Positions 34,201 through 37,200 of a DNA stretch of 64,000 nucleotides are shown in pieces (the first letter of the stretch is position 1; each line of letters begins with the position of its first letter). The notes beneath the pieces were generated by a model that made no database searches, was not told the DNA's origin, and saw only the letters and a program-made list of their open reading frames with translations. This stretch comes from Lamellibrachia columna. Its lineage: Eukaryota > Annelida > Polychaeta > Sabellida > Siboglinidae. Position numbers and translations under genes: made by a program. The stretch spans positions 55,569,510 to 55,633,509 of the forward strand of contig OY759266.1 of assembly GCA_963662155.1 (NCBI GenBank), read 5' to 3'.

Positions 34201-37200
34201 TCGTCGGGGAACACGTACATTGTTATTGGTGATGCCCTCTCATCTTGCGTTCTTTGTGTCAGTGGTGGCGAAGCGGGACTGAATGTGAAGTCAGCGTCAT
34301 CGTCCTCATCCTCGTGAGCGGGGGATGAGGCGATAGCATCCTCATCATCAGACAAGGATTGGTATAGTGCTCCCCCCGGTATCTCCTGCGCTGCTGGTGG
34401 CGAGTCGCAGCGGTACTCCACTCTGGTGTCGCCATCTGCCGGGGCTGTTTTTTGGCGTTTCCACGATGGCGTCACCTCATCCTCATCATCTGCCTCATAC
34501 AAGTCCACCAACTGACGTTTGTATGCCCTCTGCAGTTGTGTCAGACCCGTCTATTGAACAGAAAGAACCAGTTACATTCGGCATATTTTCATCCGCGTCG
34601 CCCTGTATATCGCTGTATCCTTCGTACATACTCTTTCTAACCAATTCTGTCACTTTGTGACGCCAGTCCATGTTCTCACATGTTGCGATGACATCTATCG
34701 ATAGCCATCGCAATACGTGCATGATCATGCTGGTCGATGGTACGTAACGCTTATTATCGTCGTCATTTAAATTCATTATACGGTTCACCTCGTTACAGGC
34801 ATATTGAACGCTGGCGACCTCTAGCGCCTTATATAAATTATTTTCGTTCGTCATGGCTTCGGATCGGTCCCGTATCCTGTCCACACCACTCACCGTAGCC
34901 TCCATATCATCGCTACTGCTTATCGATATGACATCGGTCTGTGACGTACTATTCTCCCCCTCGTCATCTGATATTATAATTAATGGTGGCGGTGAACAAC
35001 TGTCCACCGAGGAGGAGAATAGTATCTCCGAACTATTAGCATGTAACCATTCCATTACCTTCGAGCGTCCCTCCCTGACGACGTCACTGCTTGCAGTAGC
35101 TGCAGCAGCGGCGGCGGCGTCGGCGGCAGCCTGTCAACAGAATCACGCGGTGACTACTTCCAAGTCTGACACCGTGTAATTTACATACTGCCCCGCTACG
35201 CGTTTCCTAATGGTCGTCATGACTCGGGCCCCCCGCAACATGTCCAGTGCTGCATACCGCTCGGCATCTGACTTCATGTTCATGTAGTCGTTAGCCGTGA
35301 ATCCCAACACCAGGACAGCCTTGTCATTAAATAAGGTTGCCCACACTTCACTGCCAATGGCGTCTTGTAGGAGGATACGCATAGCGAACTGATACAATAC
35401 ACCATCGATGGATCGGACACACATAGCCATTGTTTTCAGGGGTCACACGTTTCTTACACTGCTGACATGATGGATATGCGATATATCTCTCTTGAACAGC
35501 AATTTGTACTATGGTTAACGGACGTGTAAATATATAATTTCCGTTACATACCTCCTTCTCGAGTCGGCTGACTGTCATATTCATGTCGAGTTGTTGGGCG
35601 GCCATTTCTTCTTCTCTGGTGATGCTGGTTTCTAGACGTGAGCTGTGTGATTCGGAGTTCGATTGTGCCTCGTTCACTCTGCGTCGGGTTTATATAGCCC
35701 TCTCACCGACTGTGGCGCGCTTTCTTATCGCAACCCTTGGTCGAGCGCGTGATGCTGCTATTGCGTGCTGGATGTCTGGTATCTCGTTGTACTATGTTCA
35801 CCGGTCTTGTCATGCTATCTCGCTGTACTCTGTTCACCGGTCTTGTCATCGACTCGCGTTACGTCTGGCCATCGTTTCGCTGCGGGGGGAGTCTTATGCA
35901 ATCGAATGAACTCGCGTACTCGCATGAGTATATGTCCTAGCATGTTCTGACCGGCTTGACCACTGTATGTCAGTGCACTCCAGTATCCTTCCCGATTCCT
36001 TACCCATTCCTTCAACTCGGATTCCCGTGTGTCTAACAGTCGTTTACGTAGGGTTGGATCGCGATATTTAACAGCAACTAACGCATACATTACTGAATAT
36101 CGTTGTTTGTTCCATTCTGCGCGTAACTGCTCCTTTTCTCGTATGCTCTTGCTGAGGTGTTTCGCCTGTAGACCCGTGCGCGTGGAAAGCATTTTTTCTG
36201 CAGTCTGCATGTCACCATGATGCATGCATTTCCGCCATTGGTAAGCACTTTCAACACTGGTAAATTCTCTATTCCACACATGTATCCTGCACGCGTAGAA
36301 ATTGGACAAATAATTGTTACCGCCTCTAAACTGTATAGGACGGTTCATGGTGACTTTATGACGTTAAAATGTACAGTTACTGTCTTAACTACACGTCGTT
36401 CTAGCGCTGTCGAGTACTCGTAACCCCCGCTTTTTCCTTGCGTGATGGATGCCTGGTGTCGGTAAGCTGACAGTTGCCGACCGCTTATCTGTTTTCTGAT
36501 CAGTGTGGTATTGTTCCTCGGGTTACGCCAGCTGTCTGGTTTATTTCTAGCATGGTATATAGCTGCTGCGTTCGTCGTGTCGTCATCACAACCGCCATTG
36601 CATTCGTCGTCGTAGTCGTTTACTAGATCATGCCTCTCGTAATACCGCTAGAAGAATTCGCAGAGTTAATGATCTTTTTGGAGCTCATGGGAGATTCACT
36701 GCTGCCTATACTGCTTCGTGTGTGAGTATTTATATTTATATTTAATATATATTTATACTTTCTTAGCTCTACATAGCTCATAACTGTTCACTTTACATAC
36801 TGTTCTATCGTTCCTGTGTATACATGTCTCGCTGAGTGTTCGTCGAGTCCACGTTCCAAGTTCCATATGTAGCGGCTTGCCTAGCGATAACGCCTGCCAG
36901 TCGATAGGTTTCGTATCTCTCTCTCGTTGCTTGGTTACGTCTGTTATATATATAGATGCCTATGCATATTCTCACTCTGGTTGTGTCCTTTACTTACAGC
37001 ATACCTCGATTTCAATGGCCTCGCGTGATGGTAGAATTACTCGAGGTCACCGCGACCCGTCGGCTCACTCAGGCTACTGCCCTATTTCGCGATGACATCT
37101 ACGAAGACGGTCTCATGAGCGCTTTCATGAACCACGTCAGCCGTTGGCGCCACGTCCTATCTGACGTGTGTCGTTCCATCGATGGTTATCGAGCTCCCCC

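Follow-up and report, generated by a model that had tools for sequence, protein, structure and literature searches.

The window, a 64,000-nucleotide stretch of chromosome 6 of Lamellibrachia columna, contained a 16,655-bp element at 21979..38633. The element was bounded by terminal inverted repeats of 194 bp at 21979..22172 on the plus strand and 38440..38633 on the minus strand, which were complementary at 190 of 194 positions (4 mismatches). The hexamer ACCGTC flanked the insert on each side (21973..21978 and 38634..38639), so the 6-bp target site duplication was taken as real. The insertion site was itself a tandem repeat with a 44-bp spacing, found on both flanks (21900-21984 and 38633-38700). 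Within the element, the minus strand encoded an integrase with a chromodomain at 24522..25943 (PF00665, E=9.4e-13; PF00385, E=2e-6) and a packaging-type ATPase at 27392..28048 (PF02456 Adeno_IVa2, 23.6 bits against a cut-off of 21). Because of the inverted repeats, the AGTAGT...ACTACT ends, the ACCGTC duplication, the integrase core with its chromodomain and the Adeno_IVa2-type ATPase, the element qualifies structurally as a Polinton, in agreement with the initial annotation, which had assigned the NADAR gene described below to such an element. Inverted repeats, a 6-bp duplication, an rve integrase, a packaging ATPase and a large putative polymerase gene are common to it and to Polinton/Maverick elements, from which it differs in the NADAR and RPA-like genes added at its right end.

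All of the element genes considered lay on the minus strand. Of the recognised genes, NADAR lay closest to the right end and was followed by an RPA-like gene, two frames of no recognised family and the polymerase region. The RPA C-terminal-like gene, with a single-stranded DNA-binding OB fold, occupied 35143..35677 as two overlapping frames, which matched PF08646 with E=0.02 (35348-35677) and E=1.6e-7 (35143-35430; 31.7 bits against a cut-off of 28.5). Our literature search found no paper on an RPA-like single-stranded DNA-binding gene in Polintons. The two frames that followed were u186 (34495..35055) and the acidic u216 (33861..34511). The DNA polymerase region at 28057..32509 consisted of several broken frames and was assigned from its long-frame relatives and from sequence motifs; the motifs suggest PolB, and its pieces had no polymerase Pfam match. 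Its first frame (31367-32509) carried C2H2 zinc fingers (PF00096, E=4.5e-11). Two overlapping frames at 22832..24206 possibly form a capsid gene, and a possible cysteine protease was located at 22351..22830 with a weak match to the S273R protease (E=0.083) and no Pfam match. The putative capsid frames gave no match in Pfam, and in the PDB, which was searched with 22832-23605 only, the best E was 0.63. The polymerase and capsid genes had both been described as broken in the initial annotation. The first half of that description held, since the matched open frame of the window polymerase was 476 aa long against the stop-free frames of 1,458-1,550 aa found at 34 of 91 scored places (the best 91 of 3,235 candidates), whereas the capsid label stayed unconfirmed for want of any profile match.

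The NADAR/YbiA-type frame at 35815..36348 ran on the minus strand from 36348 to 35815 and was complete from ATG to stop (177 aa), as had been claimed for it; the plus strand in register from 35815 was interrupted by stops. The family assignment was also borne out, because the 177-aa protein matched PF08719 with 69.9 bits against a cut-off of 35.1 (E=4e-19). As a single query against the PDB, the protein matched YbiA (2b3w, E=2e-5) and the NADAR of Phytophthora (8bau, E=9e-5), and a profile of 18 sequences matched the same chains with E values of 1e-14 and 5e-14, respectively. An Rfam scan of 35000-38700 gave no match. Like 2b3w and 8bau, the window protein is nearly a bare domain, judged by its length, and it has in common with these YbiA-type proteins the sequence profile, the catalytic Glu (E114) and the phosphate-binding Lys (K40); it differs from them in being encoded by a Polinton and in its changed adenine-side residues. 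From these sequence features, the frame is assigned to a Polinton-encoded NADAR of the YbiA subfamily, a predicted hydrolase, and the predicted ADP-ribosyl hydrolase activity is probable. The anti-phage NADAR model NF053876 fell far short (54.2 against 240). The score of the equivalog model for the YbiA riboflavin enzyme, TIGR02464, was 72.3 bits, barely (1.4) below its cut-off of 73.7, and the protein was therefore not filed as a riboflavin enzyme. That it acts as an N-glycosidase on a riboflavin intermediate, as bacterial YbiA does, is suggested by this near miss but is extremely improbable, as a scan of the other 17 element frames turned up no riboflavin-type Pfam match and animals are not known to make riboflavin.

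The residue roles described in the accessible text of PMC11543638 were mapped by hand onto the window protein via its alignment with 8bau and scored in 71 intact copies of the gene. E43, K50, K75 and W89 of the Phytophthora enzyme corresponded to E33, K40, K63 and W79 of the window protein and were invariant (71/71), and R93, E125 and W133 corresponded to R83, E114 and W123, each kept in 70 of 71 copies; the lone deviating copy at the E125 position carried Lys. At the predicted active site, this sequence mapping placed a conserved Glu and Lys (E33 and K40) in every copy. The catalytic position (E125 of the Phytophthora enzyme, E114 in the window protein) is of the Glu type, not Asp or His, and places the protein in the YbiA subfamily as defined in the available sections of PMC11125620. 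The antitoxins of DarT1-NADAR (DarTG1) systems belong to the same superfamily but to the BC4488 subfamily, with Asp where the window protein has Glu. They are also accompanied by a darT partner, whereas the scan of 17 further frames of the element gave no DarT Pfam match. The residues R79, Y84 and D86, which in the enzyme from Phytophthora contact ADP-ribose on its adenine side (PMC11543638, accessible text), were less well preserved. R79 was represented by K67 in the window protein (Lys in 65 and Arg in 6 of 71 copies), the Y84 position carried Lys in 68 copies, Asn in 2 and Thr in 1, and the D86 position carried His in 44 and Gln in 27. Because these adenine-side residues were not kept, the substrate of the Polinton enzyme may differ from that of the Phytophthora enzyme.

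The initial annotation had argued from the contrast between an intact NADAR frame and broken neighbours, and this argument failed. The divergence of the inverted repeats corresponded to about 1% change since insertion, provided that the two arms began identical. With assumed indel rates, an open frame of 531 nt would survive neutrally over that time with P 0.36-0.52, and a frame of 4.5 kb with P no higher than 0.004, so the combination of an intact NADAR and a broken polymerase calls for no particular explanation. A neutral survival of 36-52% rules out the intact frame beside broken genes as evidence on its own.

Other copies of the gene were informative. The genome searches covered the best 150 of 778 NADAR candidates from a profile search and, with near relatives as queries, the best 150 of 1,135 and the best 150 of 1,057. 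All of the 150 places scored in the first search were listed over the cut-off, with no stop inside the match in 140; a stop was present in 27 of the 150 in the second search. Combined, the first two lists held at least 241 distinct NADAR places in the genome, which rules out that the frame is unique to the window copy. The third list contributed 36 further places, which were picked by eye. Eighteen places in it shared an identical score and had no stops, some of them upstream of polymerase frames near 1,500 aa; the single score and the absence of stops suggest a recent burst of the Polinton family.

The recurrence of NADAR beside the polymerase was confirmed: 80 of the 91 scored polymerase pieces (the best 91 of 3,235 candidates) had a NADAR match on the same strand within 12 kb upstream. 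Sixty of these were paired from the first two NADAR lists, against a chance expectation of 0.15 pairings for the first 241 places, and 20 more were paired via the third. The distance was 4.3-5.9 kb in 75 of the 80. The other 11 polymerase pieces had no NADAR among the matches listed and may either lack the gene or have one that falls outside the lists. When the 20 best-scoring NADAR places were read at 10 kb, 16 displayed the order NADAR-RPA-u186-polymerase on one strand; the remaining four were two host-type genes (L010 and L011) and two overlapping loci (L014 and L016).

Selection on the gene was analysed in 71 intact frames over 149 codons. Of the 81 loci that BLAST matched (the window and 80 others), seven were dropped, namely the host-type L010 and L011 and the short or broken L025, L044, L048, L053 and L068, and three that lacked a start Met (L030, L055 and L082) were left out. 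Most copies had been chosen by their rank in the profile search, a choice biased towards good copies. The ratio was calculated as mean dN over mean dS from pairs that are not independent, 147 of 2,485 of which had no defined value. The dN/dS was 0.69 for the closest pairs (dS<0.03, 40 pairs), 0.35 (190 pairs), 0.29 (424), 0.27 (153) and 0.28 (348) in successive bins over dS 0.03-0.7, 0.18 (63 pairs) between these bins and the last one, and 0.12 at dS>1.2 (1,120 pairs, near saturation). A one-ratio codon model gave 0.285. The frame is thus not neutral, and the ratio of 0.69 for the closest pairs with 0.12-0.35 for the rest showed that NADAR was under purifying selection while the element multiplied. 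This pattern is expected if NADAR works during element mobility and decays after landing. We are highly confident that the frame is a real NADAR maintained by selection on the element. That it is a passenger, open by chance, or a gene exapted and retained for the host after insertion is very unlikely: the openness of the window copy is what chance would give (P 0.36-0.52), but a pure passenger is opposed by the purifying selection seen when copies are compared (a ratio of 0.69 for the closest pairs), and two of the at least 241 NADAR places in the genome were of host type. The retention of NADAR through many rounds of spread amounts to a natural experiment, which implies that loss of the gene costs the element something.

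Comparison with neighbouring genes at 15-16 syntenic loci (dS>0.3) gave 0.34 for NADAR (16 loci), 0.20 and 0.27 for the RPA pieces, and 0.21 and 0.40 (15 loci) for the in-frame polymerase pieces. No relaxation was detected for NADAR in the 16-locus subset (0.31 at dS<0.15 against 0.34 at dS>0.3), and RPA1 and the polymerase pieces in the same subset were relaxed among close pairs (0.43-0.51). The pieces pol2 and pol3 were out of reading frame and mark homologous DNA only; pol3, with a dN/dS of 1.08-1.43, serves solely as an accidental out-of-frame control. The u186 frame evolved fast amid these conserved genes (0.77 at dS>0.3) and is a candidate conflict-driven protein. The similar constraint on NADAR and the replication genes, together with its fixed place among them, would also suit a housekeeping function, in which NADAR assists the replication or repair of element DNA or RNA without any role in defence, for example by removing stray ADP-ribose left by host PARPs; a replication role has been raised for NADARs near dnaG in the available sections of PMC11125620. 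This function is quite unlikely, since the gene seems unneeded for Polinton replication as such, judging from the fact that no paper describing NADAR in Polintons was found.

Phylogenetic analysis of 57 sequences over 142 columns, none of which was dropped, recovered one clade (SH-aLRT 99.9, bootstrap 99) with the Polinton NADARs, the tubeworm chromosomal proteins L010, L011 and P0129 (L. satsuma) and five database proteins; the database protein P0051 fell among the Polinton NADARs. Support for the Polinton clade by itself was weak (83/67). The 29 sequences from phages or viral contigs fell outside the larger clade: 28 formed a group with two database proteins, and one viral contig was placed elsewhere, as were three database proteins. 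Among the sequences sampled, those closest to the Polinton proteins are NADARs encoded on tubeworm chromosomes and not those of phages, so the origin is most simply read as a capture from an animal. Direct origin from a phage is not the likeliest, as the Polinton proteins group with the tubeworm ones and the phage matches were weak; this rejection covers phages, the tree having been built without giant-virus, RNA-virus and oomycete NADARs. Matches were found in 521 of 50,697 phage records, each below 60% identity. In the viral contigs, the single protein picked up one related locus and the profile 24; at an E of 0.01, the 9-12 kb searched for each of these 25 gave no match to any further Polinton piece from the window. 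The two host-type genes were neighbours, L011 at C6:51742379 and L010 at C6:51760561, and the NADAR frame of L010 was 1,030 aa long, with repeats in series at its N terminus and a charged tail rich in Arg. Among the protein-database matches, 6 of 82 were identical over the aligned length to copies in the L. columna genome. P0128 of L. satsuma was a partial Polinton-type NADAR with up to 92% identity over 78 residues to a database relative, and sharing of the gene by another species rests on this one partial protein, which comes without genome context.

The initial annotation had known of no described role for NADAR in animal Polintons, and our literature search, outside of which lay subscription papers and some preprints, likewise found no paper linking NADAR or DUF1768 with Polinton or Maverick elements. 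NADARs borne by phages, giant viruses and animal RNA viruses are described in the available text of PMC9503650, where the gene is an early one in several T4-like phages; that text names no Polinton in its NADAR account, and the Polinton proteins grouped apart from the phage set in our tree. As in the present element, a YbiA-family NADAR is carried by mobile elements in the Gypsy retrotransposon of Ectocarpus and the Tx1 retrotransposon of the oyster, but there it lies within Pol or ORF1 of a retrotransposon and here it is a separate gene of a virus-like DNA element (PMC12477816, accessible part). NADAR on retrotransposons has thus been published already, and as a separate Polinton gene apparently not, no paper having been found. 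According to the available sections of PMC11125620, it is unclear what physiological role NADARs play in eukaryotes, animals among them.

The explanation we favour for these observations is that the Polinton-borne NADAR clears guanine ADP-ribose from replicating element DNA. The protein would be made early, along with the replication proteins, and would strip ADP-ribose from guanines of the element DNA, which would be most exposed in single-stranded form during replication. Support from context comes from the fixed place of the gene as the first of the replication block, ahead of the RPA-like gene and the polymerase. DarT1 is known to modify guanine in single-stranded DNA, and NADAR reverses this modification (PMC11543638, accessible text). 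The opposed enzyme may be an ADP-ribosyltransferase acting on guanine, other than DarT itself, that comes from the host or from its surroundings. We put this explanation as a whole at a little short of an even chance, and counter-defence with the element nucleic acid as the target is a tentative reading, plausible yet on the doubtful side. Counting against the explanation are the changed adenine-side residues, the lack of relaxation among close NADAR pairs in the 16-locus subset, a palindromic locus (described below) where NADARs occur with no other Polinton piece, and the 11 polymerase pieces for which no NADAR was among the matches listed.

The DarT-like writer in the host that the initial annotation had envisaged was not found: the DarT search gave no match in the host genome, and the control was positive in 1 of 14 genomes. 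The DarT form is accordingly unlikely for the host itself. A search of the host genome with a Scabin-like Pfam accession, which we take to represent the pierisin-type fold, also gave no match, but its control matched in no genome either, which makes this negative uninformative. One animal DNA-guanine ADP-ribosyltransferase is known, CARP-1 of clams (PMC11209040, available portion). That animals, lophotrochozoans at least, defend their genomes by tagging invading or replicating foreign DNA with guanine ADP-ribose via a non-DarT writer, and that the Polinton family answers with an eraser derived from an animal and made along with its replication genes, is an unlikely proposal; if true, it would parallel in animals the DarT-NADAR conflict that sets bacteria against phages.

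In place of a DNA tag, NADAR might degrade a small ADP-ribose derivative of a host antiviral pathway, such as a product of TIR, PARP or ART enzymes. According to the accessible text of PMC9503650, phage NADARs act mainly on small ADP-ribose derivatives, an argument that counts against a DNA target, and the changed adenine-side residues would permit another ligand; the failure to match DarT in the host genome points the same way. However, the same text favours macromolecular targets for the NADARs of eukaryotic RNA viruses, and the gene is placed among those for single-stranded DNA binding and the polymerase. Clearance of such a soluble signal is somewhat unlikely. With either target, the retained NADAR is a hint that animals and virus-like mobile elements are in chemical conflict, and ADP-ribose, on nucleic acids or free, is pointed to as a front between animals and DNA elements.

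The overlapping loci L014 and L016 (C11:32796516-32803861) held two NADAR frames that face each other within a palindrome. Its arms, at least 1.86 kb long and 95% alike, matched themselves at many offsets, like tandem repeats. No other Polinton piece of the window was matched at this locus, and the palindrome may be a fold-back element with NADAR as its only gene. A NADAR pair with similar spacing at C3:51533669-51540748, one frame of which was read (L039), is possibly of the same kind.
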